DNA from: Actinopolyspora biskrensis | GTDB taxonomy: Bacteria; Actinomycetota; Actinomycetes; Mycobacteriales; Pseudonocardiaceae | Reading direction: 5' to 3' | Assembly (NCBI RefSeq): GCF_013408175.1 | Contig: NZ_JACBYW010000006.1 | Coordinates: 310,001-374,000, forward strand | DNA: 64,000 bases | In this document: one piece after another, positions 46,031 through 64,000 of the stretch | How the letters are laid out: every line of letters starts with the position of its first letter | Numbering within the stretch: the stretch's first letter is position 1 | Program-made: the position numbers and the translations under genes | Notes under the pieces: model-generated | The model's input: the letters and a program-made list of their open reading frames with translations, nothing else | Told to the model about the DNA's origin: nothing | Database searches by the model: none

Positions 46031-46199
46031 ACAGCGCGGTGTTCGTCCATGAACCGGTCGAGTGAGGACACCACCGAGAAAAGAGTCACATACCACAAGC
46101 GGTGCGACGTTCGAAGCGACCATGGTGTGATCGATGAAGAGTTCGCGGTACCGACGAGTCCCGGGGACCACGGTCTCATGACTCGCCAAAGCTTTCCAC

Positions 46200-46886
46200 A
46201 TGTCCAACAATGGAGTGATGATTCGCGTCCACAACCCACACCCGTGGCCCTCTACGGAACAGGAAGCCGTCGCGGTTCAGGAGCACCTGCGGTCCTTGGT
46301 CCGCTTCGACGGCGAGCCCGAGGTCGTCCGCACCGCGGCGGGATTGGACGTGGCCTATCGCGAGGACACGAACGAACTCGTTGCAGCGGTCACGGTTCTC
46401 GACATGGGAACACTGGACATCATGGACAGTGTGGTGGTGCGCGGGAAGCCGGAGTTTCGTTACGTACCGGGACTGTTCGCCTTCCGCGAGGCTCCACCGC
46501 TGCTGGAAGCACTCACACGTCTGTCAGTCGAGCCGGACATCCTCGTCTGCGACGGTCAAGGACTGGCCCATCCTCGCCGCTTCGGGCTGGCTTGTCACAT
46601 CGGCGTGCTGACCGACACTCCCAGCGTCGGCGTCGCCAAAACCGCGATGGGCCGGTACGAACCACCGGGAGAACAGCGCGGCGACTGGTCACCGCTCTAC
46701 TGCGACTCCGAGATCGCAGGCCGAGCGCTACGGACGCGACACGGCGTGAAACCGGTGTTCGTCTCGGTCGGCCACCGCCTCACGCTCGACACCGCGTGCG
46801 AGCTGATACTGCGACTTGCACCGTTCTACCGTCTGCCCGAGACGACACGCAGTGCTGACAGGTTGGGACGCTCCGCACCGGCCTAA
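46200..46886 (+). CDS. nfi: Endonuclease V
   Basis: 228 residues from the first ATG; a second ATG at 46218 (six codons later, after TGGAG) is an alternative. The motifs AAGLDVAYRED (metal-binding Asp), PGLFAFREAPPLLEA (wedge) and CDGQGLAHPRRFGLACHIGV are intact. The enzyme cuts DNA or RNA one base past deoxyinosine or inosine, in repair of deaminated adenine. Its stop overlaps the convergent immunity gene by four bases. The juxtaposition with a deaminase toxin is noted but may be chance. Confidence 0.9.
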   Translation: MSNNGVMIRVHNPHPWPSTEQEAVAVQEHLRSLVRFDGEPEVVRTAAGLDVAYREDTNELVAAVTVLDMGTLDIMDSVVVRGKPEFRYVPGLFAFREAPPLLEALTRLSVEPDILVCDGQGLAHPRRFGLACHIGVLTDTPSVGVAKTAMGRYEPPGEQRGDWSPLYCDSEIAGRALRTRHGVKPVFVSVGHRLTLDTACELILRLAPFYRLPETTRSADRLGRSAPA

Positions 46887-47227
46887 AAGTCATCCAGCGT
46901 CAATGTCCCATCATCATCCCACCGTCGTTGTCCCAGGTATCCTCCTGTATCGCTGAACCGAGCCTCTCTTGCCAAAGTTCCATTCTTATGCCACTCGACA
47001 TGAGTTCCGATGGCCCGCCCTCTTGAATTATAACCTTCGGAACGTTTTGCCCCATCCGGATACCATTCCTTCGTCACCCCGTCCGGAACTCCGTCAACAT
47101 AGGTAGTCAAAGCAACAAGAACACCGCCCCGCGTTTCCTCCACCACTTCTCCAGTAAAAGGAAAACCCTGATACAGAGCTGTTTCATCGAACCCAGATTC
47201 CACCTCGTCCTCAGTTATCCGAAACAT
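46883..47227 (-). CDS. YwqK-like immunity protein with MORN-type repeats
   Basis: 114 residues from the ATG at 47227. Repeats of the form YVDGVPDGVTKEWYPDG and HVEWHKNGTLAREARF are MORN-like units of the kind found in YwqK antitoxins. The gene starts inside the last codons of the toxin gene, so it is made together with the toxin. In Bacillus subtilis YwqK is the immunity partner of the YwqJ deaminase toxin; the same pairing here supports neutralisation of the toxin at 47211-51002. It is AT-richer than the backbone, like the toxin tip. Confidence 0.78.
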   Translation of the reverse strand: MFRITEDEVESGFDETALYQGFPFTGEVVEETRGGVLVALTTYVDGVPDGVTKEWYPDGAKRSEGYNSRGRAIGTHVEWHKNGTLAREARFSDTGGYLGQRRWDDDGTLTLDDF

Positions 47228-50200
47228 TACCCCTCTTCCGAGTGAACTCTTCAAGCGGAACAACATACTCACTGTTGGCTATGTTTTCAATTTTCCTGTC
47301 AGGATGATTTTTTCCGTGGTTGAAACCGCCCGCTGCCATATCAGAGGACTCCCAGCCCGTTGAGAGTATAGCATTGCAATTAGCACAGCACGGAGCCAAG
47401 GATGCCGGCCAGTCCTTGAACGTGAACCGACTGTCTACGTACATTCGCCCCATGATTTCCTTCATCTCCGCCTTGGTGCCAACCCCCCTGTCATTCAACA
47501 GTTTGTTCAACGCCTTCACCTCCGCGTGTCGAGTAGGTTCATCCTGCCAGGGGTACTCCCCTTTCTCAGAAGCAAGGTTTCCGTCAGGGCCGTACAGATC
47601 ATATTCGCCGCGAATATCCTCCAAATGATCCCACAGGGCATGATTCAATTCCACTCCGGGAATAGCGCTGTCGCTCTTCCCGTTTACCGCCTCGTAGACA
47701 TTGCCAAGTTCCCGGTCGATAATGACGGAATTAACACCTCCATTTTTTCCTCCCATCCTCTTCTGCGATATCGTGTTGCCCTCCTGGTCGAGCGGGCGGT
47801 GATTCTTAGCAGCATCCCGAATAAAGTCCGTTCGATCCTCGAGGGCCTGTCGAACATACGATTCAACCGGATCGCCGTCGATCTTGACTATGAGCCCCTC
47901 CTCGTACTCGCACCGGTAAGGATCGATCGTTTCCAGTTCATGGGCGCGATCAAAATCAGTGTTGACCGGTTTTTCCGGATATTTCTCGCTTCCGAAAGCG
48001 GTCTGGCCATCGTCTCCCCGCGCCTCGGCTTCCTCCGGCCTCTCGCCGGGGTCCGCGCCGTCCCGGGGAGGATGGAAGCCGTCCTCGCTGGCCGGAGCCC
48101 TGGTGCTGTCGGGGTGGTGCGTGTCCCAGCCACCGTCCGGGGGCCAGGTCGGGCTTCCGTCGGGCCCCGTGGCGCTGACGAACAGGCGCCCGCTGCTGTC
48201 GCTCCAGACCAGCCCGCGCGGGGCGGTGACCGGGACGTCGAGCTCGCGGGCCAGATCCGCCGCGAAGTCCTCGGAGTCGCAGACGGCCAGCCGGACCGGC
48301 CGCTCGCCGTCCCACTCCGGCAGGCGACGCAGCACGTCGCTCAGCTCCTCCGGTGAGTAGCCGCGGTCACCGATGTGGGCGCGCCCGTCCGGCCTCATGT
48401 GGGCGTCGAGCGTGAAGTGCCCGCCGTCGTCGGGAACGCGGCGCGCGAGGTCCTGCATGTTCGGGTCGGTGTGCCCCGACACCCCGGAGTCGGTGCGGTT
48501 GCCGCGCAGCTGCTCGAGCGCGTCGTCGACCTTGCGCTCGTACTCCGGTGTCCCCGGCTCCGGCCGGTCGGCATCGTCCCTCGGGGGCCCCGAGCCGTCG
48601 CCGTTCCCCGCCCCCGGATCGTCCTTCGGCCGCTGCGGTGCCGATTCGGGCCCGTCCGACCCGGTGTTCGGTCGATTCGAGCCGTCGCCGCCACCACGCT
48701 GCTGCCCCGGGACGTCCGTCCGCTTGGGAGCGGACGGGGGCGACGTCTCGGGAGGCCGTCCCGCTCCTCCCCCGCCGGTGCCCGGACGGGAGCTCGGGCT
48801 CCCTCCGTCCGGGGAGCGCCCGGACGTGTCCGGTCTGCCGGGACCGCGTTCCGGGCCGCGTGGCGGACTGCTCGTCCCCGCGGTCTCCGCCCGCGGTTTC
48901 GGAGGCCCCTCGGGACCTCGGCCGGTCGTCCCCGGCCCCGTGGGCGATCCGGTGTGCCCGGAAGCACGTGGAGCGTCCGTGGTGGACGGCGGTCGACCGG
49001 CCGCCCCCGGCGTGCCGGGGGTTCCGGTCCAGCCTCCTCCGGATCCGGGACGGTTTCCACCGCCGCTCGGGCCCGCCCCGCCGGTTCCGGACTGCCCACC
49101 GGCCGTCCCGGGGCTGCCCGCCGGTCCCGCCGCCGGAGTGGAGGGAGAGCTCGAGGGCTGATCCGCACGAGGCGGCGTCGACGGGGCCGCCGGTGCGGCC
49201 GATGCGGCCGATGCGGCCGGGGACGTCACGTCGGACGGGCTGGTGCTGGACGGAGCACTCGGGTTTCCCTCCGGGAACGAAGGGGGCGAACCGCCGTCGG
49301 CACCCGGGCTCCCGCCGTCGGGCGGGCCGCCCGCCCCGGGACGGGGACCGGACGCGTCGGGAGCGGCCCCGGTTCCACCTGGTGCCTCCGGAGCCGGTCC
49401 GGAGGGGCGGCCACCTCCGGCATCGGGCACGCCCCCACCACTGGACAGGTCCCCGGAGAACGTCATCGTCCGGGGGTCCGGAGCGGCCGTGGAGCCGCCG
49501 GGCGCGGTGCTGCCGGTGGGTGGCTCACCACCGGGACCGCCCTCCGGGGAGGGAACGGTTGCGCCCTCGGCGGAACCGTCGGACCGCGGCGGTGCCGGAC
49601 CGGTGTCTCCGGGGGCCGAGGGGCCGGGATCCGGTCCGGACCCCGCGGTCGGCGCGTCCACCCCCGAAGAGGACGAGTCCGCTCCCTCGTACGACGAGGA
49701 GGGGAAGCTCCGCTCCGGACCGGGTCCTCCGGGGGACTCGTAAGGGCGCCCGGAGTACGGGCTCTCGCCGGAGGACGGAGCACCTCCCGGACCGGTCTCC
49801 GGACGTGAGGAAACCGGGGTGTCCGCGGAGGGCGCCGCGTCCGGGCCGGAGCGCGGGGACTCGGGGGCGCCACCGGGAGCGGCGGAGTCCGCGTCGGGAC
49901 CGGACCTCGGACCGGGAGCCGCCGGATCGGGAGCCCCGCCGGGAGCGGTGGAATCCGATTCGGGCCCGGTGAGATCGGAGTCGGGACCGGCCCCCGGTTC
50001 GGGAGCGAGGTCCGGATCGGCGCCGGAACCGGGGTCCGAGCCCGAGCCGCCGTCGGAACCGGAACCACCGCCCCCGTACGGGTGCTTGCCGGATATGTCG
50101 GTGCCGAAGGCGTCGTCGAACTTCCTCCACGAGCTCTCGGCGACCCTGTCGGCGACCTTGCCGGAGACGTCGATCTTGTCGGCGACCCTGCCCGCTCCCT

Positions 50201-51002
50201 CGGCCGCCTTCTTGCCGATCTTGCCGAGCGAGCTCATGATCTCGCCGAAGACGTCGACCATCTTCTTCAACTTCGGAGAGACGTTGCTGATGGTCTTGGT
50301 CAGCTTCTGAACGATCTCGGCGATCTTGGTTACGGTCTTGGAGACGAAGGTGGTGGCCTGGGCGACGACGACCGGGGTGCCGAAACCGAGGGTTCCGATC
50401 GCCTCCAGCGCGTAGGTGATCAACCGGGAAACGCAGTCGGCGACGAGGTCGCGCACGAACTCGCGCACGAACGAGACGACCTCGCCCATGATCGTCACGA
50501 CCGAGCTGATCGTGCTCGCCAGCTCGGCGGCACCGGACAGCGCCTCGCCCCTTTCCGCGGCGTGACCCCGGTAGGCGTCCCCGGCGGCCCCGACCCACTG
50601 CGCGACGTCGGCCTCGACGGCCGCGCCGTACTGCTTGGCGGCTTCGTTGACCTCCTGGGAAACATTGCCCCAGGTCTCCCCGTAGGCACGGACCCCGTCG
50701 GGATCACCCGCGAACCAGTCCAGGGCCTCCTGGAGCGGTTCGACGTGCTCGATCAGCCACGACAGCCCGTACGACATCAGCGTGCCGATCGGGTCGACCG
50801 CGAGGCTGACCGCCTCCATCGCGAGCCCGCCGTAGGCCAGTCCCGACTCGACCCAGCTCGAACCGTCCTCGAGGCTGCTCACGTCGTTGACGGACTCGGC
50901 GATGCCGATTCCGGTGCCCCATCCCGCTTCTCCCGTACCTTCGGTGAGCGGTCCGGGCCCGTCCGGTGCCTGCTCCTCCTGCTCGACGAGGGGGTTGTTC
51001 AT
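47211..51002 (-). CDS. Polymorphic toxin: WXG-like N-terminus, Pro-rich linker, YwqJ-like deaminase tip
   Basis: 1263 residues. Residues 1-305 are helical with WGNVSQEVNEAAKQYG and long amphipathic helices, as in type VII secretion cargo. Residues about 310-816 are a Gly/Ser/Pro linker. Residues 817-1009 form a conserved pre-toxin region (RPVRLAVCDSEDFAADLA, VPVTAPRGLVW). Residues 1010-1263 carry the tip: THAE-type HAEVKALNKLL with His and Glu at 1159-1161, and APCCANCNA with cysteines at 1205, 1206 and 1209. That is the zinc site of the nucleic-acid deaminase fold. The YwqJ-like call rests on this motif pair and the YwqK-like partner. It presumably deaminates nucleic acid or nucleotides of rivals; the substrate is unknown. 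Confidence 0.8.
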   Translation of the reverse strand: MNNPLVEQEEQAPDGPGPLTEGTGEAGWGTGIGIAESVNDVSSLEDGSSWVESGLAYGGLAMEAVSLAVDPIGTLMSYGLSWLIEHVEPLQEALDWFAGDPDGVRAYGETWGNVSQEVNEAAKQYGAAVEADVAQWVGAAGDAYRGHAAERGEALSGAAELASTISSVVTIMGEVVSFVREFVRDLVADCVSRLITYALEAIGTLGFGTPVVVAQATTFVSKTVTKIAEIVQKLTKTISNVSPKLKKMVDVFGEIMSSLGKIGKKAAEGAGRVADKIDVSGKVADRVAESSWRKFDDAFGTDISGKHPYGGGGSGSDGGSGSDPGSGADPDLAPEPGAGPDSDLTGPESDSTAPGGAPDPAAPGPRSGPDADSAAPGGAPESPRSGPDAAPSADTPVSSRPETGPGGAPSSGESPYSGRPYESPGGPGPERSFPSSSYEGADSSSSGVDAPTAGSGPDPGPSAPGDTGPAPPRSDGSAEGATVPSPEGGPGGEPPTGSTAPGGSTAAPDPRTMTFSGDLSSGGGVPDAGGGRPSGPAPEAPGGTGAAPDASGPRPGAGGPPDGGSPGADGGSPPSFPEGNPSAPSSTSPSDVTSPAASAASAAPAAPSTPPRADQPSSSPSTPAAGPAGSPGTAGGQSGTGGAGPSGGGNRPGSGGGWTGTPGTPGAAGRPPSTTDAPRASGHTGSPTGPGTTGRGPEGPPKPRAETAGTSSPPRGPERGPGRPDTSGRSPDGGSPSSRPGTGGGGAGRPPETSPPSAPKRTDVPGQQRGGGDGSNRPNTGSDGPESAPQRPKDDPGAGNGDGSGPPRDDADRPEPGTPEYERKVDDALEQLRGNRTDSGVSGHTDPNMQDLARRVPDDGGHFTLDAHMRPDGRAHIGDRGYSPEELSDVLRRLPEWDGERPVRLAVCDSEDFAADLARELDVPVTAPRGLVWSDSSGRLFVSATGPDGSPTWPPDGGWDTHHPDSTRAPASEDGFHPPRDGADPGERPEEAEARGDDGQTAFGSEKYPEKPVNTDFDRAHELETIDPYRCEYEEGLIVKIDGDPVESYVRQALEDRTDFIRDAAKNHRPLDQEGNTISQKRMGGKNGGVNSVIIDRELGNVYEAVNGKSDSAIPGVELNHALWDHLEDIRGEYDLYGPDGNLASEKGEYPWQDEPTRHAEVKALNKLLNDRGVGTKAEMKEIMGRMYVDSRFTFKDWPASLAPCCANCNAILSTGWESSDMAAGGFNHGKNHPDRKIENIANSEYVVPLEEFTRKRGNVSDN

Positions 51003-51307
51003 ATCCGGATCTCGCCGAGCATGTCGCTGTTGTCCTGGTCCACGGACTCGTAGTCCTCAGCGGCTCCCCGGACGTTCTCGGCGGTGTCCCGCATCCCCTC
51101 TACCGCCTGTTTCAGGGTGTCGATCCCGTGCTGTTCCACCGGATCCAACATCCACGCGAACGGTCGGCACAGGATCCCGTAGGCGTCGTTGTCCAGCGAC
51201 ACCTGCTGCGCGGCGTCCACGGCGGTGTCCAGCCGGTCGATCACTTCGTCCACTTTGGATGCGTGGTTGCGCAGTTCCTCGGGGGCGACGTTCACTCGGT
51301 CGGACAT
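50999..51307 (-). CDS. WXG100/EspC-like type VII secretion-associated protein
   Basis: 102 residues from the ATG at 51307 after GAGGAG. The helical sequence VNVAPEELRNHASKVDEVIDRLDTAV resembles the ESX-associated DUF2580/EspC group. It overlaps the toxin start by four bases, so they are translated together. It probably pairs with the toxin N-terminus as a secretion partner. No ESX core genes (eccB-E) lie in this window. Confidence 0.75.
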   Translation of the reverse strand: MSDRVNVAPEELRNHASKVDEVIDRLDTAVDAAQQVSLDNDAYGILCRPFAWMLDPVEQHGIDTLKQAVEGMRDTAENVRGAAEDYESVDQDNSDMLGEIRI

Positions 51308-51332
51308 AGACGAACTCCTCAACACCGAAAGA

Positions 51333-51887
51333 TCAACGCAGGAAGGACCGGCCCTCGAAGTCGTCGTCATCGGACTCCTCCGGCCGCTGCCACGACCGCG
51401 CGGAGCCCTCCGGAGCCGACGCGGCCTCGTCGTCGTCATCGGGCCCCAGATTCATCTCCCGCACACCGGCCCCGGAGGTCCGCGGCTCGTCGGACTCCTC
51501 GGACTCCGGCGGTTCCGGGAAGCTCTCGCGGGCCCGGCTCAGGACGTGCTGGACAGCCGGGTCCTCGGTGCCGACCGTGTCGGCAGCGGCCTGCCGCATC
51601 AGCTCCGGGATCCGCGACTGCGCGGACCGCACCGCACGCATGATCTCGGCGGCCAGCTTCGACATCGGCCGGTTGGCCGCGTGGTCGGACAGGCTCAGGT
51701 CCCGCAGGATCCCGTCCGAGCCAAGGGTCACCCGGACCGCTCCGTCACTCGACGACTCGGTCACCGAGATGTCCTCGATCTCCGCCTGCATCCGACCGAA
51801 TCTCTCGGCCTTCTCGCTCGCGCGTTCCTGCCATTCACGGACCATCCGCTCCGCGGCCCCGACGTCCCTGCCGAAGTCCTCGGTCAA
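51333..51887 (-). CDS. YbaB/EbfC-like DNA-binding-family protein
   Basis: 184 residues. The start is a TTG four bases after GAGGAGG. The N-terminal two thirds resemble YbaB/EbfC: a long helix (MVREWQERASEKAERFGRMQAEI) followed by VRVTLGSDGILRDLSLSD. The C-terminal third is acidic and disordered. Genes of this type commonly precede WXG100 and toxin genes in actinomycetes. Here it starts the toxin operon, 25 bp upstream. Whether it binds DNA or acts in secretion is not known. Confidence 0.72.
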   Translation of the reverse strand: MTEDFGRDVGAAERMVREWQERASEKAERFGRMQAEIEDISVTESSSDGAVRVTLGSDGILRDLSLSDHAANRPMSKLAAEIMRAVRSAQSRIPELMRQAAADTVGTEDPAVQHVLSRARESFPEPPESEESDEPRTSGAGVREMNLGPDDDDEAASAPEGSARSWQRPEESDDDDFEGRSFLR

Positions 51888-54077: not shown

Positions 54078-55058
54078 ATGGTTGACCTACGCCGACTCCA
54101 CATGCTCAGGGTGGTGCACCAGCAGGGAACCGTCACTGCTGCCGCAGAGGCCCTGCACCTCACGCCCTCGGGGGTTTCCCGCCACATTCGTGAGCTCGCG
54201 CGTGAGCTCAAGGTCCCGCTCCTGGAACCACAGGGCCGCAACATCCGGCTGACCCCAGCCGGGTACCTGCTGATCGAGCACGCCGACGTGCTGCTCGCCC
54301 GATGGGAACAAGCACAGGCGGAGTTGGAGTCCCACCGAGCCGGCATGAGCAGACCGCTGCGCGTCGCGGGCTTCACCACTGCGGTAAGCGGCCTGATCGC
54401 GCCCGCGGCCGGACAACTGCGGAACAGCCATCCCGATTTCCAGGTACACGTTCGCGAGTGCGACACCATGCAGAGCATGGACCTGCTGGTGGCCGGCGAG
54501 GTGGATCTCGCGGTCGTGGAGCCCATCGAGGGCGGGCCACCGCCGGATGATGCGCGGTTCGAGCAAATCCCCCTGCTGGAGGAACCGTTCATCATGCTCG
54601 TACCTGCCGCCCACCCACTGGCGCAGGCGTCGACGGTGCAGCTGGCGGACGCGGCAGCCGAGGACTGGATCGTCGCCGAGCCGGGTACGTGCGACCATGC
54701 CCAGCGGGTGCGGGGCCTGTGCGCGGCAGCCGGGTTCTCGCCGCGGATCGTGCACTCCGCCACCCACTGGCCGGCGGTCTGGTCGCTGGTCAGTAACGGC
54801 CTGGGCGTCTCGCTGATCCCGCAGCTGGCTGAAGGCCCCGCAGGGCAGGCAGTCGTTCGGGTACCGGTCTCCAGCGAGAACATGCCGATGCGGCGGATCC
54901 TCACCTGCGTACGCCGGGGCAGCCGACGGAACCCGCTCATCGACCTCGGGGTTCAGGCGCTCAAAGATGCGGTCCACGACCATCAACCCCTCGACGACGA
55001 GCCAACATCCAGCCGTCAGCTCACCTGTTCACCGGGCGCGACGCCAAAGAGCTCCTAA
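54078..55058 (+). CDS. LysR-family transcriptional regulator, 3' end altered by IS
   Basis: 326 residues. The N-terminal winged helix has DLRRLHMLRVVHQQGTVTAAAEALHLTPSGVSRHI; the co-inducer domain follows from about residue 92. It is divergent from the APC transporter across 217 bp, the usual arrangement for LysR control of a transporter. The last three codons lie inside the left end of an IS5-type element: the IS supplies the stop codon at 55056. The original C-terminus is therefore lost or changed, but the domain core is intact. Confidence 0.85.
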   Translation: MVDLRRLHMLRVVHQQGTVTAAAEALHLTPSGVSRHIRELARELKVPLLEPQGRNIRLTPAGYLLIEHADVLLARWEQAQAELESHRAGMSRPLRVAGFTTAVSGLIAPAAGQLRNSHPDFQVHVRECDTMQSMDLLVAGEVDLAVVEPIEGGPPPDDARFEQIPLLEEPFIMLVPAAHPLAQASTVQLADAAAEDWIVAEPGTCDHAQRVRGLCAAAGFSPRIVHSATHWPAVWSLVSNGLGVSLIPQLAEGPAGQAVVRVPVSSENMPMRRILTCVRRGSRRNPLIDLGVQALKDAVHDHQPLDDEPTSSRQLTCSPGATPKSS

Positions 55059-55896
55059 CGTATCTGGGTTGGGAGTCGGCGCCAGCAGATGAGGCTGTTG
55101 GCGAGGGTGGGGAAGCCTTGGTGGATGTCGGTGCGGCGTTCCCAGCGGGTGGCCAGGCGGCGGAATCGCTGCAGCAGCGCCAGGGTTTGTTCGACGACCC
55201 AGCGCACGGGCTGGTTGTTGTCGCGGGCGCCGCGACGGATGATCAGCGGCCGGATGCCGCGGTCTCGCAACAGCTCTCGGTAACGGTCGTAGTCATAGCC
55301 GCGGTCGGCGACCAAGGCCTCCGGCTTGCGGCGGGGTCGCCCGACTCGGCCGCGCACGGGCGGAATCGCCTCAACCAGCGGCAGCAGTTGGGTGATGTCG
55401 TTGCGGTCGCCGCCGGTGAGGACCGTGGCCAAAGGAACACCACCACCGTCGCAGATCAGGTGGTGCTTGGACCCCGCCTTGGCGCGGTCGAGGGGACTGG
55501 GACCGGTATCGGTGCCCCCTTCGCCCGCACATGCGAGGCATCCGCGATCGCACGGGACCAGTCGATCTGATCGGCAGCGTGCAGCTCGGCCCACAAGACC
55601 TCGTGCAGTTGGTCAAACACACCGGCTGCAACCCAGTCCCGTAAGCGTCGCCAGCAGGTCATCCCCGGAACCGAAGCCGAGCTCTTGTGGCAGGTCTTCC
55701 CACCCGATGCCCGTGTAGAGCACGAACAGGGTCCCTTGCAGCACCGCGCGATCGGGCAACGGCTTCGGGCCCGTCTTACTCGCCGGACGCACCGGCAACA
55801 GCGGCTCGATGCGCTCCCACAACCCGTCCGACACGATCCACGGCGCAGCCACACCAAGATCATCTCAAACCAAGATCCCCAATGCGTTAGGGACTC
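55049..55896 (-). mobile_element. IS5-type element B, second copy, about 848 bp
   Basis: Left end GAGCTCCTAACGTATCTGGG; reversed right end GAGTCCCTAACGCATTGGGG. It is the same element as 36871-37719. The transposase is in three frames, so this copy is also unlikely to move on its own. Confidence 0.72.
55055..55852 (-). pseudogene. IS5-family transposase of element B, second copy, two frameshifts
   Basis: The frame from 55852 (MAAPWIVSDGLWERIEPLLP) runs to GFGSG and then loses phase at a GGGG run; the related copy at 36915 has GGG there. A second frame carries WRRLRDWVAAGVFDQLHE to ASHVRAKG. A third frame continues TGPSPLDRAKAGSKHHL to the stop at 55055, with DDE blocks GGDRND, VADRGYD and RWVVEQTL. 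The second shift may be the natural orfA/orfB slip; the first is damage. Confidence 0.7.
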
Positions 55897-56354: not shown

Positions 56355-57617
56355 TCAGCGGGTTTCGGCGACAACACGGGCGAGAATGCTCAGACCTTCC
56401 TCCAATTCACCGGAGGAAATGCTGAGCGGGGGAAGCAGCTTGACGACTTCGCTCAGCGCACCCGACGTCTCCAGCAACAGCCCGTGTTCGAAGGCCCGCG
56501 CGCATACGGCGGACGCCTGCTCCGGATTCGTGAATTCGATACCCCATGCGAGGCCACGGCCGCGATATGAGGCATCAGCGCGCTCAGCGCAGATCGTCTG
56601 CAGGCTCCGCTCGACCTGCTCGGCGTGCGCCTGGGTCTGCTTCTGTGTCTGATCGTCCTTCCAGTAAGTGGCCAGGGCGGCGGTGGCGGTGACGAAGGCG
56701 GGATTGTTGCCGCGGAAGGTTCCGTTGTGCTCACCCACTTCCCACATGTCCAATTCAGGCTTGAACAGGGTCAGGGACATCGGAAGGCCGTAGCCGCTGA
56801 TGGACTTGGACAGCGTGACGATGTCCGGCACGACACCTGCCTCTTCGAAAGAGAAGAAGGCGCCCGTGCGACCGCATCCCATCTGGATGTCGTCGATGAT
56901 GAGGAGCATACCGTGCCGCTTGCACAGAGCAGCGAGTTGCCGCAGCCACTGGGCCCGGGCCACATTGATCCCACCCTCCCCCTGCACGGTCTCCACGATC
57001 ACGGCTGCGGGTTTGTTCAGGCCTGATCCCTTGTCCTCCAGCAGCCGCTCGAACCACAGAAAGTCCGGGACCTGCCCATCGAGGTAGCGATCGAAAGGCA
57101 TCGGTGCGCCATGGACGAGCGGGACGCCTGCCCCGGCCCGTTTGAAGGCGTTGCCGGTAACAGCCAAGGCCCCCAGCGACATGCCGTGGAAAGCGTTGGT
57201 GAACGAGACGATCGTCTCGCGGCCCGTGACCTTCCGGGCCAGCTTCAGCGCGGCCTCAACGGCGTTGGTGCCCGTCGGTCCCGGAAACATGACTGTGTAC
57301 GACAGATCGCGCGGGCGCAGCGCGTAGTGCTCGAAAGCTTCCAGGAAGCTGCGCTTGGCAGCGCTGGCCATGTCCAACCCGTGGGTGATGCCGTCGCGCT
57401 CGAGATAGTCCAGCAGCGCCCGCTTCAGTACCGGATTGTTGTGTCCGTAGTTCAGGGCCCCGGCTCCGGCGAAGAAGTCCAGGTAGGGACGCCCCCGTTC
57501 ATCATACAGGTGACTGCCTTGCGCGCGGTCGAAAACGGCGGGCCAGTCACGGCAGTAGCTGCGTACGTTTGACTCCCGCTCTTCGAAAACGCTCAGGTCG
57601 GGCGCAGTGATCGTCAC
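56355..57617 (-). CDS. ectB: Diaminobutyrate--2-oxoglutarate aminotransferase (EctB-like)
   Basis: 420 residues from the GTG at 57617, six bases after AAGGAGG. It is a class III aminotransferase: FPGPTGTNAVEAALKLAR, IIDDIQMGCGRTGAFFSFE and LSKSISGYGLPM with the PLP lysine. FEERESNVRSYCRDWPAVFDRA is the typical EctB start. It makes L-2,4-diaminobutyrate from aspartate semialdehyde. In ectoine pathways ectA, ectB and ectC are adjacent; here ectA is divergent and ectC is absent, so the product may feed the neighbouring biosynthetic operon. Confidence 0.9.
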   Translation of the reverse strand: MTITAPDLSVFEERESNVRSYCRDWPAVFDRAQGSHLYDERGRPYLDFFAGAGALNYGHNNPVLKRALLDYLERDGITHGLDMASAAKRSFLEAFEHYALRPRDLSYTVMFPGPTGTNAVEAALKLARKVTGRETIVSFTNAFHGMSLGALAVTGNAFKRAGAGVPLVHGAPMPFDRYLDGQVPDFLWFERLLEDKGSGLNKPAAVIVETVQGEGGINVARAQWLRQLAALCKRHGMLLIIDDIQMGCGRTGAFFSFEEAGVVPDIVTLSKSISGYGLPMSLTLFKPELDMWEVGEHNGTFRGNNPAFVTATAALATYWKDDQTQKQTQAHAEQVERSLQTICAERADASYRGRGLAWGIEFTNPEQASAVCARAFEHGLLLETSGALSEVVKLLPPLSISSGELEEGLSILARVVAETR

Positions 57618-58151
57618 GGAGTTCCTCCTTGTATGTTTACCTTCTACCCCGCAGAAGCGGTCGTTGTAATTACGGCGACGCAGCCACAGCACCTTCCTTC
57701 AGGCTCGATCCACCCGAGCTGATCACGCGGCGGCCACACCCGTGGGCACGGCCCGCCCAACGTCACGAACTGCGACTTCCGCATCGAGGACTCGCACACC
57801 GACTTCGAGTTTCATGCAGCCGCTCACGTCGCGCGGCTGGGTGTTAACGGGATTGGCGATGGCCAGGGGCAGGAGTGATGCGCCGGCACATCGCTTCCGT
57901 CGCCTCCTGCTTCTGGTCAGATGAGTTTCGTGGAGCAGTATACAGCGATGCGGGATTTTGAACATTTCATCCCTCGTGATCCGCTGCATTTTTACCCCGC
58001 CGACCCGTGATGGGTAGACGAACGGGTGGAAATGGATGACACTCGGGTGGAGGAGCGCGCGCCCGCCTCGGCCGTCTCTTCGCAGGGGAGAGACCAGGAT
58101 CATGCCGGTCCCCAACTGACGCTCCGATTCTTCTGAGCGAAAGGGAGAACG
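57618..58151. other. Divergent region of ectB and ectA, with a coding remnant
   Basis: 534 bp. An open plus-strand frame at 57723-57878, without a start codon, reads NCDFRIEDSHTDFEFHAAA and then HVARLGVNGIG before a TGA. It looks like the C-terminal tail of a decayed gene, family not recognised. The AT-rich part near 57930-57990 may hold the ectA promoter; AAGGGAG is its ribosome site. Confidence 0.45.
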
Positions 58152-58670
58152 ATGACCGCATCGCCGCCGCAGAATAACGGTACCGATGTCCAATACCGCA
58201 CACCTACCCCGGCGGACGCCATTGCTGTCTGGCAGATGGTCGCCAACGAGCCGATGCTGGACGACAACAGTTCTTACCACTACACGCTTTGGTTCCGGGA
58301 CTTTGCTGAGACCTCCATGGTGGCCAACGTGGGAGACGAACTCGTGGGGTTCATGACCGGATATCGACGACCCTGCAAACCGGACACATTCTTCATCTGG
58401 CAGGCGGCGGTCAAGCCCGGAAGCGGCATTTCGGGTCTCGGGGTCGACATCCTCGCAAACGCGATCGACTTCCAACTGACCACCGGGGCGAAGTACGTGG
58501 AAACGACTATTTCCGAGCAGAACAAGGCAGTCACCATGCTGCTGCACATGATCGCCAAGAAATACGACGCCGACATCGCCACCGAACTCCTGTTCGCTGC
58601 GGAAGCGCTTCCAGATGGTGACCATGACGAGGTCCTCTACCGCCTCGGACCGCTGAACCCTCGCACCTGA
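58152..58670 (+). CDS. ectA: L-2,4-diaminobutyrate N-acetyltransferase (EctA-like)
   Basis: 172 residues after AAGGGAG. It is a GNAT fold: YRTPTPADAIAVWQMV at the N-terminus, DELVGFMTGYRRP, FIWQAAVKPGSGISGLG (acetyl-CoA loop) and YVETTISEQNKAV. This is the EctA pattern. It acetylates diaminobutyrate made by EctB to N-gamma-acetyl-diaminobutyrate, normally the substrate of ectoine synthase. No ectC lies in the window. Confidence 0.9.
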   Translation: MTASPPQNNGTDVQYRTPTPADAIAVWQMVANEPMLDDNSSYHYTLWFRDFAETSMVANVGDELVGFMTGYRRPCKPDTFFIWQAAVKPGSGISGLGVDILANAIDFQLTTGAKYVETTISEQNKAVTMLLHMIAKKYDADIATELLFAAEALPDGDHDEVLYRLGPLNPRT

Positions 58671-58712
58671 AGCTGGGGCGGGGGCGGCCCGGAGCGGTCG
58701 GCCCCATCGCCC

Positions 58713-59504
58713 TCAGGTGGGAAGCAGCGAACGCACCTCCACAGCGGTGATCCGATGTGTGCTGGCGATCGCGGCGGCATGGCCTTCTACGAACACGTCC
58801 AGCAGGTGGATCGGGGACGATGGCCAGTCCTCGGCGGGGAGCCCTCGAGGCACAGCCAGATCACCCTGGACTCCGATACGGTCCAGGCGAGCCGCTAGTC
58901 CGTGTCCGGTGAGCTTGACGGCGGCTTCCTTCCGCGACCAGAGCCGCGCGAACGCCTCCGCCAAGTCATGTGCGGGCAGTTGGGACAGAGTTGCGGCTTC
59001 GTCCGATGTGACGGTGCGGCCCATGAGACGCCCCGGGACACGGAGGTTCCCCAATGTTTCAAGGTCGGCGCCCACGAACCCCCGGGTCACGACACCGATG
59101 ACAACCCGATGGCGAGTGTGCGCGACCGAGTAGTCGTATCCGGCTCCGACTACGCGAGGGCGTCCATGGTCGGCGCTGCAGCGGTCGCAGGTCCGGTCGA
59201 TGCGCACAAGATCGGTCGGCCTGCCAGTATACCGGCAGGCGATCAATCGCTGCGCTCCGCGGGAGGTGACGAATAGATTCCGCTGCCCGCCCTTGGGAAT
59301 CATCTCGGCGCGGGCGGCCTCGATTGGCGTCAGCAGTCCTTCCCAGTGCGGTCGCTCCCGGACCGGCACCGACCAGAGGTGGCACTCGCCGACGGCGGGT
59401 AGGGCGTAGAGGGGAGACAGCTTCGTTCCCTTCCAGGCATGATTCCGGCCCCGTCGTCCGCAGCTCCGGCGCCCCGGGCCGCGGACGACGGGGCCGGGGG
59501 TCAA
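58713..59504 (-). CDS. 4'-phosphopantetheinyl transferase, Sfp type
   Basis: About 263 residues. The signature blocks are FVGADLETL (the GxD Mg site) and LWSRKEAAVKLTG; YDYSVAHTRHRV precedes them. It loads the phosphopantetheine arm on carrier proteins, consistent with a carrier-based pathway. The frame opens with a TTG at 59504 that overlaps the halogenase stop; the first 25 codons look poorly conserved, so the true start may be further in, before KLSPLYALPAVGE. It is the last gene of the overlapped operon. Confidence 0.82.
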   Translation of the reverse strand: MTPGPVVRGPGRRSCGRRGRNHAWKGTKLSPLYALPAVGECHLWSVPVRERPHWEGLLTPIEAARAEMIPKGGQRNLFVTSRGAQRLIACRYTGRPTDLVRIDRTCDRCSADHGRPRVVGAGYDYSVAHTRHRVVIGVVTRGFVGADLETLGNLRVPGRLMGRTVTSDEAATLSQLPAHDLAEAFARLWSRKEAAVKLTGHGLAARLDRIGVQGDLAVPRGLPAEDWPSSPIHLLDVFVEGHAAAIASTHRITAVEVRSLLPT

Positions 59505-61222
59505 ACCTCATATTCGGTTCCCACGCCGTCGAAGCGGAGGCGGTCCTGGATCAAGACCCGCTCGCCGTTCTTGTCGAAGCCCACCAGGAGACCTGCCTCC
59601 ATGAGACGGATGACGATCTGTGAGCTGATCTCCTGCTGGCCGGCGTCGCCCAGTTCGCGGATGAGCTCCTTGTAGCCGACCTCCTCCTTCAGGAGACGGC
59701 TGAGGATCTCCCGGTGCTCTTCCTCCACGGGCCACTTGATCATGTCACGGCCGTCTTCATTCGCCAGGACCTGCTTGGGTTCCAGGGTGAACGTTTCAGG
59801 ATCGATCTTGTAGTAGGGCTTGAGGACGACCTCTGCGCCGTTCCACTGCAGTCGCTTGATGCGGTTGAGCCGCTTGGTCAGTTGGCTGATCCAGCGCACA
59901 CGAGCTGGCTCGAGCTCCCTGTCGGTGAACTCGTCGCTCAGCTCCGTGCGTTGGTGGCGTCCGATACTCATCATGGTCGCCGCTCGGTCGCGGAAGTCGG
60001 CCACCGACACCGTGCCGTCCTTGCTGGAAGCAGCCAACCTCTCGAACCAGCCCTTGCGGTTCAGGCGTCCGTCATCAGATTCGCTGATCCGCCGCTTGGA
60101 CCAGAACGCGGACTCCGGTTCGGTGAAGGAAGCCAAGGTGTAGAAGGAGGCGAGGAACTCATGGTACTGTTCGTAGGTTTCACGGTAGGAGCGGTTGTAC
60201 CAGGCGTGAACCTCCTCACTCTCGTCCTTCCGTTTGGTGATCCGGTCGATCGCGGCGGCCGCGGAGACGGCCGACTGCGTAGCCAGGTGCACGCCCTGGG
60301 AGAACAAGGGGTCCGTGAAGCAGGCCGAGTCGCCGGAGAGGAAGTAGCGTCCGGCGGAGTACACCTCGGAATCGTATGACCAGTCGTGGATGACACGGAC
60401 CTCGTCGGTCATCTCGGCGTCGCCGAGGATCTCCTTGGCGCGGGTGGCCTTGGCGAGAGTCTCCCGGTAGAAGCGCTCGGGCCCCTTCTCCTTGACCTCG
60501 CTCGACTTTGAGCGGTCTACGACCAGCCCCACGCTGTAGAGGTCGTCCGCGACCGGAATCATCCAGACCCAGCCGTCCTCGAAGGTGATGGAGTAGGTCG
60601 TCCCCTTGAGGTCGCCTTCGAAGGGGTCGGCACGTCGGAAGTACGACCAGATGGCGAAGCTCTTGTAGAACTCGTCGTAGTGCCGCACCTTGAGCTTCCG
60701 GGCCAGGGGCCCGTTGGAGCCGCCCGCGTCGATCACGAAGTCGAACTCGACCTGATTGTCGGCTTTCCCCGCGGTAAGCGACACCTTGTCCGGATCCGAT
60801 ATGTCCACATTGGATACCGATGTGTTCTCGGACACCTCGATTCCACGTTCCTTAACCTCGTCGAGCAGGAGCTTGTCGAATTCATCGCGCTTGACCTGGA
60901 TAGCGTGGTCGAAAACCCACGGCGAGCTCTGTGGCGTGGTGAAGGAGAAAGTCCACGGGGCCTCGTCCCGTCCCCACAGGAAAGTTGCCGAGGGCTTCTT
61001 CACGAAGTTGCGCGCGTCGATCTTCTGCTGCAGGCCCAGTCGGTTGAAGATGGACAGTGTTCCCGGCAGGAACGACTCTCCGACCTTGTAGCGAGGAAAG
61101 ATTTCGCGCTCGAAAACGACCGGTCGGTGGCCGAGCTTGTGCAGCGTGAGGGCGGCGGTGCAGCCAGCGGGGCCGGCCCCGATGACAGCGACGGTCGATC
61201 GGTTCAAGATGAGTCCTCTCAT
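59501..61222 (-). CDS. Flavin-dependent halogenase (carrier-protein-type)
   Basis: 573 residues. The FAD motif GAGPAGCTAAL, RYKVGESFLPG, the halogenase signature W-x-W-x-I-P (WVWMIP, residues 218-223) and SGDSACFTDPLFSQGVH are all visible. Proteins with this set and length resemble halogenases acting on carrier-bound substrates (PltA and CmlS groups) rather than free tryptophan. They install Cl or Br using FADH2, O2 and halide. The ATG at 61222 overlaps the previous stop; a TTG at 61207 behind GAGAGGA is possible. The C-terminal 150 residues are longer than minimal halogenases. A plain FAD monooxygenase remains an alternative. Confidence 0.75.
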   Translation of the reverse strand: MRGLILNRSTVAVIGAGPAGCTAALTLHKLGHRPVVFEREIFPRYKVGESFLPGTLSIFNRLGLQQKIDARNFVKKPSATFLWGRDEAPWTFSFTTPQSSPWVFDHAIQVKRDEFDKLLLDEVKERGIEVSENTSVSNVDISDPDKVSLTAGKADNQVEFDFVIDAGGSNGPLARKLKVRHYDEFYKSFAIWSYFRRADPFEGDLKGTTYSITFEDGWVWMIPVADDLYSVGLVVDRSKSSEVKEKGPERFYRETLAKATRAKEILGDAEMTDEVRVIHDWSYDSEVYSAGRYFLSGDSACFTDPLFSQGVHLATQSAVSAAAAIDRITKRKDESEEVHAWYNRSYRETYEQYHEFLASFYTLASFTEPESAFWSKRRISESDDGRLNRKGWFERLAASSKDGTVSVADFRDRAATMMSIGRHQRTELSDEFTDRELEPARVRWISQLTKRLNRIKRLQWNGAEVVLKPYYKIDPETFTLEPKQVLANEDGRDMIKWPVEEEHREILSRLLKEEVGYKELIRELGDAGQQEISSQIVIRLMEAGLLVGFDKNGERVLIQDRLRFDGVGTEYEV

Positions 61223-61845
61223 GATTGGTCGGACTTGATGGATTTGATGCGACTCGGAGTCAGGTAGGAAAATCCGCTAGCAGCATCCTCGAAAAAGGTG
61301 ATCCCCGCTTGAAACCGGCATTCGTCGCCAATGCAGATCTCCGGTGCGACAGTGCAGTCAAGGCCGAAAAAGTTCCCCTCACCTATTCTTACACTGTTTC
61401 CGCAGTGAAAGTTCGGGGAGAAGAAGTTGCCCGACCCGATCCGGGAATGATGCCCGAAAGTGCACCGGTAGTTGACGACGTTATAGCTTCCGACGACGGT
61501 GTTCACACCGATGTAGTTGTCCGGTCCGATCACATTTCCCCCGCCCTCGATCGCTACGGGATCGAGGTGGGAAGAGGGGTGGATGATGTTGACCGGTTCT
61601 AGCTCCCGGGCCGTGATGTACCCCTCGATAACCTCGCGCCGTAGGACCATGTCGGACACGGCGAGGGCCACCCGTGTGCCTTCATTCGGGTCGTATTCGG
61701 CGAGATTCGACCACATCCCGTCCGGCGCGTGTATATCTTCGCCTTCGAGGGCGAGATAGCGCTCGATGCGGAAACCTGATTCCTCGGCGTAGCGCGCCAC
61801 TTCCAGAGCGAACTTTCCTGCCCCTATGGCGACCAGTTCGTTCAC
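61219..61845 (-). CDS. NeuD/PglD-type hexapeptide-repeat acyltransferase
   Basis: 208 residues. A Rossmann-like N-terminus (VAIGAGKFALEVARYAEESGF) is followed by a left-handed beta-helix of hexapeptide repeats (GGGNVIGPDNYIGVNTVVG and SRIGSGNFFSPNFHCGN). The family transfers acetyl or other acyl groups to amino sugars and related amines. Both ends overlap neighbours by four bases, so it is translationally coupled to the ligase and the halogenase genes. Confidence 0.82.
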   Translation of the reverse strand: MNELVAIGAGKFALEVARYAEESGFRIERYLALEGEDIHAPDGMWSNLAEYDPNEGTRVALAVSDMVLRREVIEGYITARELEPVNIIHPSSHLDPVAIEGGGNVIGPDNYIGVNTVVGSYNVVNYRCTFGHHSRIGSGNFFSPNFHCGNSVRIGEGNFFGLDCTVAPEICIGDECRFQAGITFFEDAASGFSYLTPSRIKSIKSDQS

Positions 61846-63206
61846 TCCTGGCCCCTCTTCTTCTTGAACCGGGCTGATACGGGAACCTCATCGATCACCG
61901 TGATCTTGGCGGGCATTTTGAACGGCTCGACCTTGCCGTCGAGGAACTCGCGGACATGTCGCCGGACTTCGTGCTTATTCATCTCGCCGACGGGCTTGAC
62001 CTCGACGTGGACGGCCTGCCCCGTGATGGAGTTCGCATTCCCGTAGACGGCGCAGTAGGCGATTTCAGGGCTGCCCATGAGGATCGATTCGAGTTCGAGC
62101 GGGAGGACCTTCTCGCCACCTACGTTAATGATCTCCTTAGCGCGCCCCTTGACCTTGATATAGCCCTCTTCGTTCTCCTCCACGAGATCGCCGGTCCGGA
62201 ACCAGCCATCTTCGGTTACGGATTCGTTGGAGTAGTTGAGGTAGCCCATAAACTGCGTCTTGGTTCGCAGCTGCAGCTCACCTTCGACAATCCGGTGCTC
62301 GACCCCCTCCTCGGAGATCTTGAAGTACGTACTGGAGGACGACTCGCTCTGCGTGGTCGAGATGCCCGTCTCACTGGTCCCGAAGGTCTGGAGGAGGCGA
62401 GCGCGCGGGAAGGCCGCGTGAACGCGACCGAGCAGCTCCTCCGGCATGGGTTCGGTCCCGTAGGTGATCAGCCGCAGGCTGGAGAGGTCGAACTTCTCGT
62501 GGAACTTGCCGATGAGGATGAGGTTGAGGAACGTCGGGCTGGTCGGGAGTAGGCGGATGCCGTACCGGTCGACTAATGAGCAGATCTCCTCGGGCGTGCG
62601 CCTGGCCGGCACGACTGCGGTGGCCCCGCTGCGCACGACGCCCAGCAGCGAGTTGATCCCCCCGATGTGGTCGGCCAGCAGGAACAGCAGAATGTGCGGT
62701 GGTTTAGCTCCCACGCGTTCACTCGCGCCGATCTTGTCTTCGAGCAGGGCGTCGAAGTTATGCAAGACCGCCTTCGGCGCTCCTGTCGATCCGCTCGAGA
62801 GCAGGACGAGCCCTGAAGAGTCAGCTTCGACCAGCCCTCCGTAGAGGTCTTCGGTCTCACCCGGAGGAGCGTCGAACGGTGTGACCGTGACCTCTGCTTC
62901 CACCTCCAGCACGTGTCGAGGACGACAGGCGTCGCGAACGGCCGTCAGCGTTGTCTCCGTGAACGTCACGACGGGGACCACCACGGCCTTGAAGCGGTAG
63001 AGCGCGAAAAGCGCGGCGATGTGGGAGAACGAGAAGTCCCCTTTGAGGACAACGGGGTCGTGCGGCTTCACCCCCGCCTCGTCCAGCATCGTCTCGATGC
63101 GCCGGATCTCCCCGGCCAGCTCTCCGTACGTGCCGCTCGATTCCTCGTGTACGACTGCCGTGCGGTCTCCCAACCGCTCCAGCCGACCCAACAGGGTCTC
63201 CCTCAT
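61842..63206 (-). CDS. AMP-forming acyl/aryl ligase (ANL superfamily)
   Basis: 454 residues from the ATG at 63206 after GGGAGGA. The phosphate loop LSSGSTGAPKAVLHN, TFGTSETGI, GWFRTGDLVEE and the hinge and lysine region KGRAKEIINVGGEKV are intact. It activates a carboxylic acid as the adenylate and passes it to CoA or a carrier protein. It is shorter than NRPS modules and stands alone, with no fused carrier domain. The substrate cannot be read from the sequence by eye. Confidence 0.85.
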   Translation of the reverse strand: MRETLLGRLERLGDRTAVVHEESSGTYGELAGEIRRIETMLDEAGVKPHDPVVLKGDFSFSHIAALFALYRFKAVVVPVVTFTETTLTAVRDACRPRHVLEVEAEVTVTPFDAPPGETEDLYGGLVEADSSGLVLLSSGSTGAPKAVLHNFDALLEDKIGASERVGAKPPHILLFLLADHIGGINSLLGVVRSGATAVVPARRTPEEICSLVDRYGIRLLPTSPTFLNLILIGKFHEKFDLSSLRLITYGTEPMPEELLGRVHAAFPRARLLQTFGTSETGISTTQSESSSSTYFKISEEGVEHRIVEGELQLRTKTQFMGYLNYSNESVTEDGWFRTGDLVEENEEGYIKVKGRAKEIINVGGEKVLPLELESILMGSPEIAYCAVYGNANSITGQAVHVEVKPVGEMNKHEVRRHVREFLDGKVEPFKMPAKITVIDEVPVSARFKKKRGQE

Positions 63207-63901
63207 TGGATTCCTCCCAGATACAGAGTCTCGCCGGTAACGAAGCCGGATCGGCCAGTGGTCAGGAAGTCGACCGGGCCAACGATGTCCTCCATCTCGC
63301 ACATCCGCCCCATCGTTTGCCGGGCAATGACGGCATCGAGAGTCTCCCGCGCGAGAGTTCGGGTGAGGGCAGTCCGGACCGGCGGCACACCAACCCCATT
63401 TACTCGTATGCCGAACGCGACCAGTTCCTTGCTCATGACACGAGTCAGCTGCTCAACGGCGCTCTTACTCGCCGAGTAGACAAGCTGGCCGTCCAATGCC
63501 CACGGCACGGCAACCGTCGAGATGTTGAGGATCGCCCCGGATTCTTCCGGACTCTTCTGCAACAGCTTGGCGGCCTCCCTGCAGCAGTTTAAAACCGCGA
63601 AGAAGTTAAGGTCGAAAACTTCGCGCGCGGTCTCCTCCGGCGTCATCATGAAATGGTTCATAACCGCTGTTCCAGCATTATTCACCAAAACATCCAAATG
63701 CCCAAACTCGCGGCGAATCGCGCGGAACATGGAGCGCACCTGCGCGCCGTCGGTCAAGTCGATCTCGTGGTGGCGGTACCTGCTATGGTCGATCATCGAG
63801 GACTTTCTACTGCAACCGACCACCGTGTCACCGCGCTCGAGGAAATGTTCGGCCAGTGCCCTTCCTACGCCAGTCCTGGTTCCAGTGACGAGGGTAATCA
63901 T
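63203..63901 (-). CDS. Short-chain dehydrogenase/reductase
   Basis: 232 residues from the ATG at 63901 (an upstream frame to 63970 is not supported). The NADP site is TGTRTGVGRALAEHF, with NNAGTAV and the catalytic YSASK (Tyr, Lys) and a Ser in ISTVAVP. The C-terminus LTTGRSGFVTGETLYLGG is FabG-like. It may reduce a carrier-bound ketone or oxidise an alcohol. Its stop overlaps the ligase start by four bases. Confidence 0.85.
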   Translation of the reverse strand: MITLVTGTRTGVGRALAEHFLERGDTVVGCSRKSSMIDHSRYRHHEIDLTDGAQVRSMFRAIRREFGHLDVLVNNAGTAVMNHFMMTPEETAREVFDLNFFAVLNCCREAAKLLQKSPEESGAILNISTVAVPWALDGQLVYSASKSAVEQLTRVMSKELVAFGIRVNGVGVPPVRTALTRTLARETLDAVIARQTMGRMCEMEDIVGPVDFLTTGRSGFVTGETLYLGGIQ

Positions 63902-63920
63902 CAGAGCGGCGCGTATCCGG

Positions 63921-64000
63921 TCAAGCCGTTTCAGAGACAGCGACGCCAGATTCGAGCAGCTCCGCCTCAATGAAATCGACGAGCCGGCTCACTCTGCTGA
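63921..64000 (-). CDS. C-terminus of an upstream cluster gene, perhaps a carrier protein (partial)
   Basis: The minus-strand frame open at the right edge reads SRLVDFIEAELLESGV and ends ETA before a TGA at 63921, 19 bp before the SDR start. The length and amphipathic pattern fit the last helix of an acyl or peptidyl carrier protein, which this pathway needs. Only about 26 residues are visible, so this is a guess. Confidence 0.35.
   Translation of the reverse strand, partial: SRVSRLVDFIEAELLESGVAVSETA

Follow-up and report, generated by a model that had tools for sequence, protein, structure and literature searches.

What does the deaminase tip of a YwqJ-type toxin act on? The question is raised again by a locus of Actinopolyspora biskrensis (Pseudonocardiaceae), where a toxin gene with a predicted deaminase tip and its putative immunity gene adjoin a gene for endonuclease V. 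The locus was analyzed within a stretch of 64,000 nucleotides (the window; contig NZ_JACBYW010000006.1, positions 310,001 to 374,000), to which all coordinates refer unless another locus is named. An earlier note, made from the sequence alone, had described a type VII-type polymorphic toxin and its antidote. The locus as a whole is very probably best explained as an antibacterial polymorphic toxin that is routed through an ESX system and carries a YwqJ-clan deaminase tip and a MORN_2 antidote as an exchangeable cassette. Polymorphic toxins of the YwqJ/YwqK kind are an already known type, as is the YwqJ family itself, and the addition made here is the endonuclease V neighbor, which turns the question of the target into a simple test.

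The toxin gene (47211..51002, minus strand) encodes a protein of 1263 aa, and its tip comprises residues 1011 to 1263 (47214..47972, minus strand). The motifs HAEVKALN and APCCANC, previously proposed as the zinc-site pair of a deaminase, are both present in the tip, and their HxE and CxxC residues are conserved in the family alignment. The zinc pair consists of the second and third cysteines of APCCANC, C196 and C199 in the numbering of the 253-aa tip. C195 is substituted in relatives, whereas H149, E151, C196, and C199 are retained wherever the column is covered. Among 72 aligned domain hits (E ≤ 1e-10), the histidine and glutamate are present in 62 and both cysteines in 63, the remaining rows being gaps from split or partial matches. 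The window tip alone scores 13.2 bits against the profile PF14431, for which the cut-off is 25.9 bits. Twelve of the 14 aligned members of the tip family match PF14431 at E ≤ 0.1, some of them above the cut-off, with scores of 29.2 bits for the tip region of P0006 (25.8 bits for the whole protein) and 28.5 bits for L007.

A predicted structure without the deaminase fold and zinc site had been set beforehand as a possible refutation of the YwqJ-like assignment; the AlphaFold2 model of the tip contains both. In a VIA-align comparison on the Foldseek ranking, 47 of the 50 PDB matches listed are deaminases, and the closest folds include those of the TadA/ADAT2 tRNA deaminases and of the blasticidin S, cytidine, cytosine, and guanine deaminases. 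TadA/ADAT2, cytidine, and blasticidin S deaminases have an HxE/CxxC-type site, and the fold of the tip is like theirs at 12 to 21% identity over 95 to 121 aligned residues; unlike the tip, they are housekeeping or resistance enzymes. Sequence searches of the PDB with the tip, and then with the family profile, returned no significant deaminase chain. The best match of the family profile looked like chance; next in rank, with an E value of 0.41, came a subunit of a Tc toxin that has a YwqJ-like tip. Searches of NCBIfam were uninformative for the tip and the MORN protein, and PADLOC gave no family at E ≤ 0.1 for the tip, the MORN protein, or endonuclease V. The profile matches of relatives, the conserved HxE and CxxC motifs, and the predicted fold support the assignment of the tip as a putative zinc deaminase of the YwqJ clan.

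The gene that follows the tip on the minus strand (46883..47227, stop codon included) encodes a predicted MORN_2 protein of the YwqK-like kind. The earlier note placed this gene correctly, but probably not its start: the ORF as listed spans 46883..47272, and the likelier start is an internal ATG at 47225-47227 (MFRITEDE...), which lies 17 nt within the 3' end of the toxin gene and from which the relative P0005 aligns. The protein matches PF07661 with an E value of 3.4e-5 (24.0 bits; cut-off, 29.6 bits), and in the PDB the MORN family profile hits chains of SET7/9, a protein with MORN repeats, with a best E value of 5e-5. Before tip loci were counted, L045 (contig edge) and L047 (chance match) were left out, and seven Nocardia loci with internal domains were treated apart. 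Of 66 tip loci, 61 have a MORN gene directly behind the tip (58 of 63 by the MORN profile plus three further loci); it is missing from L120, L128, L133, L134, and L135, and likewise from the seven Nocardia loci. In contrast, no MORN match was found in the 16 kb read for any of 59 control carriers, which were taken among the matches listed, have the N-terminal type of the window toxin without the tip, and exclude places known to bear the tip (59 of 60 were counted, L212 being left out because its sequence came from the wrong side). The MORN gene belongs to the tip rather than to the carrier, which is consistent with its proposed role as an immunity gene. Some loci have two or more MORN genes after a single tip (e.g., L103, L104, L107, L111, L113, L122, L127, and L130), an arrangement that resembles stacked immunity genes.

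The carrier of the tip is of the type VII kind. The four ORFs of the proposed coupled operon (46883..51887, minus strand) are all found where they had been placed, in the order YbaB-like gene, EspC-like gene, toxin gene, and MORN_2 gene, and start/stop overlaps couple the EspC-like gene with the toxin gene and the toxin gene with the MORN gene. The first gene (51333..51887, minus strand) is YbaB/EbfC-like as described (PF02575, E value of 5e-11). The second (50999..51439, minus strand) had been called WXG-like and is instead a small type VII substrate of the EspC type, matching PF10824 with an E value of 2.6e-20 versus only 0.0014 for the WXG100 profile; it overlaps the toxin start by 4 nt. 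Residues 1 to 310 of the toxin (50073..51002, minus strand) form a predicted N-terminal trafficking domain that is WXG100_2/EspA-like (PF25547, E value of 3e-5, below the cut-off) and recurs widely across the family, in 110 of 120 genomes. They are followed by a linker rich in proline, glycine, and serine (residues 311 to 850; 48453..50072, minus strand; GC content of 0.778) and by a pre-toxin domain without a Pfam family (residues ~851 to 996; 48014..48452, minus strand), which is retained in a sibling carrier with another tip. The genome has an ESX system, recognized by searches for EccC (760 bits), EccB (362 bits), and WXG100 (two genes) on contig C3. The EspC-like partner, the WXG100_2-like N terminus, the ESX genes, and the swapped tips described below bear out the type VII reading.

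A search of 246 genomes for the pre-toxin domain gave weak matches in two besides the source genome; in Nocardia loci, the deaminase domain is likewise preceded by weak matches. By eye only, the positions of its histidine and cysteine recall clan CD peptidases.

The window and its relatives reveal that the carrier is resident and that the tip, along with its immunity gene, is exchanged behind it as a cassette. The GC content at third codon positions (GC3) of the window falls from 0.93 (0.929; residues 851 to 990) to 0.59 (0.593) over the tip and to 0.45 over the MORN gene, a step at toxin residue ~1000 that the earlier note did not contain. Two other species of the genus share the carrier. In one (G821), residues 756 to 1263 are 90% identical and the MORN gene is present. 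In the other (G866), the carrier DNA is homologous to the window up to position 48014 and the far flank resumes at 46069 (blastn), so that the segment 46070..48013, with the tip, the MORN gene, and endonuclease V, is unmatched. The G866 carrier (L061) is 74% identical over residues 755 to 996, and between the matching flanks lie a NucA/NucB-like tip (PF14040, E value of 9e-5; 23.3 bits versus a cut-off of 23.8) and a 208-aa ORF with a GC3 of 0.63; no endonuclease V was found in G866. This swap matches the GC step at residue ~1000, and with both flanks intact it is a clear natural case of tip exchange in type VII toxins. Other carriers with the same N terminus (L063, L065, and L067) end in ADP-ribosyltransferase (ART) domains. 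In the carrier survey, the tips of L062, L066, L069 (another frame in the linker; part of L146), and L064 (contig edge) were left unnamed. Full-domain ADP-ribosylglycohydrolase genes lie downstream of the toxin in L063, L067, and L068; two of these three toxins end in an ADP-ribosyltransferase domain, and the arrangement gives the impression that the enzyme undoing the modification serves as the immunity protein.

The whole arrangement is also found outside the genus. Pseudonocardiaceae, the family of the source genome, also includes G607, which carries an Actinokineospora spheciospongiae contig (L022) with YbaB, EspC, carrier, tip, and MORN genes in the order of the window. Its YbaB counterpart (3952-4350 of L022) is 34% identical over 137 aa (E value of 1e-16) and its EspC counterpart (4406-4699) is 44% identical over 98 aa (E value of 1e-24); the GC3 of L022 is level at 0.96 around the tip. 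With the source genome counted, the tip family occurs in 16 of 394 genomes of the class and in 45 of 390 genomes of the family, which exceeds chance. A phage search with the query P0001 and a first scan of genome contigs with P0001 alone gave no match, and one run of a viral-contig scan gave no tip relative. The carriers of the tip are unrelated: the type of the window, a different one in Nocardiopsis and Actinorugispora, low-complexity proteins in Frankia, and very large proteins in Streptomonospora. At the Nocardiopsis-type loci L023, L025-L029, and L036, a common long ORF on the opposite strand, up to 6 kb from the tip, appears by eye to encode an EccC-type ATPase-like protein, and toxin and secretion genes may adjoin there.

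Is the domain always an antibacterial weapon? In Nocardia (L037-L043) and a few Pseudonocardiaceae (L133 and L135 in G832 and G1042, and L134 in G864), giant open frames of at least 2200 aa enclose the deaminase domain, twice in a single frame in G832 and G1042, and no MORN gene was found with them. In addition, a Tc toxin subunit of Yersinia entomophaga has been assigned to the YwqJ-like family, so that an insect pathogen uses the clan too (PMC10847046). These cases would fit a domain that is inactive or that serves as a host-directed or internal regulatory deaminase. For the window toxin this is very unlikely, given conserved catalytic residues, a dedicated adjacent MORN gene, and a chassis on which nuclease and ART tips take the place of the deaminase.

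An antibacterial toxin with the computed deaminase fold and site, dedicated MORN neighbor, exchanged cassette, and type VII chassis may work as follows. The EspC-like partner and the N-terminal domain would route the toxin to the ESX system encoded elsewhere in the genome. After export, the last ~250 residues would enter a competitor and may kill it by converting the amino groups of nucleobases to carbonyls. The product of the overlapping MORN_2 gene would bind and neutralize the tip in the producer, as the tight coupling of the genes and the YwqJ/YwqK pair suggest. Endonuclease V could add further protection by repairing bases that have been deaminated, a role about as credible as mere position.

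The closest known parallel is in Bacillus subtilis. YwqK is a MORN_2 protein, and by its published description the YwqJ/YwqK/YwqL set of B. subtilis is like that of the window, with a YwqJ-clan tip, YwqK-type MORN immunity, and endonuclease V nearby. The B. subtilis set differs in having an LXG carrier, a type VII secretion system of Bacillota, and co-directional endonuclease V, whereas the actinomycete has ESX, an EspC/WXG-type carrier, and convergent endonuclease V; the similarity of the window tip to the YwqJ family is also low (below the Pfam cut-off). The ywqJ-ywqK genes have been studied as toxin and antitoxin, YwqJ affects growth, and ywqH-ywqI-ywqJ-ywqK-ywqL is the operon deleted by Kobayashi in a report that mentions both ywqL and the toxin (PMC8321402). 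YwqL is endonuclease V and cuts DNA at uracil (87%), hypoxanthine (92%), xanthine (30%), and AP sites (84%) (PMC6364969); the main text of that paper contains no ywqJ, ywqK, operon, or toxin.

Among actinomycetes, a Streptomyces yangpuensis plasmid (NZ_CP102515.1) encodes a YwqJ-related putative deaminase whose tip is 28% identical to that of the window and passes PF14431 (29.2 versus 25.9 bits; whole protein, 25.8 bits), and a MORN gene 41% identical to that of the window lies 4 bp downstream. This plasmid differs in its unrelated carrier, which follows a DUF6507 gene, and in the absence of endonuclease V from the 12.5 kb that were read. The DddA and SsdA toxins also have polymorphic-toxin deaminase tips with adjacent immunity genes, from different deaminase families (SCP1.201-like and BURPS668_1122-like, respectively), and, unlike for the YwqJ clan, their target is known to be DNA cytosine.

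The B. subtilis results bear on the target. Induction of YwqJ affected growth and left the chromosome and rRNA unaffected, and the authors suggest small molecules as targets (PMC8321402). The nearest folds of the tip likewise include deaminases of free bases and nucleosides (blasticidin S, cytidine, cytosine, and guanine) besides tRNA deaminases. Instead of polynucleotides, the tip may thus attack free nucleotides or other small molecules, so that the target cell starves or its precursor pool is poisoned; to this we give a somewhat less than even chance. Endonuclease V, if linked, would then matter since deaminated precursors such as dITP enter DNA. However, fold similarity does not set the substrate, and deamination without strand breaks would equally leave the chromosome and rRNA looking intact. 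DddA, one of the mutagenic deaminase toxins described, is a cytosine deaminase that causes chromosome degradation (PMC7901873); set against it, YwqJ without a visible effect on chromosome or rRNA argues weakly against cytosine-to-uracil conversion in DNA. Purines in DNA, RNA, or nucleotides are the targets that this argument leaves.

Does the neighbor of the cassette narrow the target further? The endonuclease V gene (46200..46886, plus strand; PF04493, E value of 2.2e-67), which the earlier note did not contain, is convergent with the operon, overlaps the MORN stop codon by 4 nt, and is either a candidate repair partner or a plain neighbor. Endonuclease V repairs deaminated DNA bases; as a partner, it hints that the deaminase may damage DNA or its precursors and suggests that the reaction products turn up in DNA. 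Of 63 tip loci, 27 have an endonuclease V gene no more than 6.5 kb downstream of the tip; it is co-directional in 16 of them (seven Frankiaceae and nine Pseudonocardiaceae) and convergent in 11 (the genus of the window and three others). Of the 59 control carriers, 1 has endonuclease V nearby (L213). The Fisher P value of this comparison, 1e-8, ignores relatedness and sets unmatched carriers side by side; within the N-terminal carrier type of the controls, the only type they represent, the excess is small (4 of 20 versus 1 of 59; P = 0.013, relatedness ignored).

We hold it an even question whether this linkage is purely positional, with endonuclease V a resident single-copy gene and the deaminase one of several tips passing through its site. 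Endonuclease V was present in 24 of 27 genomes examined, as a single gene (one with an extra fragment), and was missing from 1 of 21 genomes with the tip (G500) and from 2 of 6 without it. Several observations weigh against a functional link between the two. No endonuclease V is near 36 of the 63 tip loci, where the MORN gene and genus-level neighbors recur, none of the latter a repair gene by eye. Four endonuclease V sites, which are not a systematic survey, have toxins with other tips (G861, G840, G801, and G868; the loci are labeled L143 for G801, L144 for G840, L146, and L213), and G846 has endonuclease V at a site homologous to the window with no match to the tip, MORN gene, or carrier (L145, without a toxin match). 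In G801, the carrier and the endonuclease V flank match those of G763 (L140), and the tip differs from the deaminase. The tips of G840 and G861 (L144 and L146) are restriction-endonuclease-like by eye; in L144 (7900-9700), such a tip and a 287-aa ORF precede MORN pieces broken into two frames, which have no tip match and look like a left-over. The idea that endonuclease V travels with the tip, raised by its absence from L061, was ruled out by L143, L144, L145, L146, and L213. The convergent endonuclease V, at least, belongs to the resident site while tips change, and the sites with other tips mean that part of the linkage is chromosomal position.

On the other side, position alone has to account for cassettes in either orientation, on different sides of the endonuclease V gene, and for endonuclease V lineages in separate groups. 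In the endonuclease V tree, co-directional and convergent cases group separately, and given its well-supported branches each label must have changed at least twice, whether by gain or by loss. The Frankiaceae loci L030 and L033 have the tip, the MORN gene, and endonuclease V in common and no other matching ORF (≥100 aa, 1e-8); L030 and L031 also have a common upstream stretch. The endonuclease V sites seen in the family carry twenty deaminase tips versus four others, though they were mostly found via the tip. Beyond actinomycetes, the B. subtilis ywqJ-ywqK-ywqL order is joined by a plasmid case: among 72,556 plasmid records, 12 had a MORN match and 21 had endonuclease V, and one plasmid, NZ_CP043762.1 of Paenibacillus sp. 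37 (L215), had both, with nfi 0.57 kb after the MORN gene and followed by DNA polymerase IV. By eye only, short frames before this MORN gene (3500-6600 of L215) hold HAEV and CPHC-like pieces with the look of a decayed deaminase, so the plasmid perhaps carries a decayed YwqJ-YwqK-YwqL-like set; the tip profile had no match to these pieces at E ≤ 10.

The boldest account of the neighbor, and not the one preferred here, is that the tip is a natural toxin acting on purines of DNA or of DNA precursors, in the simplest case by turning adenine into hypoxanthine, with endonuclease V recruited as a self-protecting repair enzyme that stays next to the toxin and immunity genes from Bacillus to Frankia and Pseudonocardiaceae. 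We consider this account improbable. Adenine is not singled out, because endonuclease V of B. subtilis also cuts uracil, and the findings at L143 to L146 and L213 lowered the DNA-adenine account and raised the positional one. If true, no natural DNA adenine deaminase would precede the tip; adenine base editors depend on an activity of this kind that was obtained by laboratory evolution. A DNA deaminase that acts on purines would be both novel and of practical use because, according to a review, no natural single-stranded DNA adenosine deaminase existed for base editing (PMC10096463). No publication linking the functions of such a toxin and endonuclease V was found among the papers searched, and Iyer et al. 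(2011), on deaminase toxins, might mention the neighbor. That endonuclease V is so often close by, especially in the co-directional cases and the B. subtilis operon, is worth following because it makes the substrate of the deaminase testable.

Two further features of the window were judged by eye. A few kilobases upstream of the operon, two transposase-like ORFs of 179 and 135 aa lie in different frames (55055-55863, minus strand). Farther on, a biosynthetic-cluster-like run (56355-63970, minus strand) contains aminotransferase-, phosphopantetheinyl-transferase-, halogenase/FAD-monooxygenase-, acyltransferase-, AMP-ligase-, and SDR-like ORFs.

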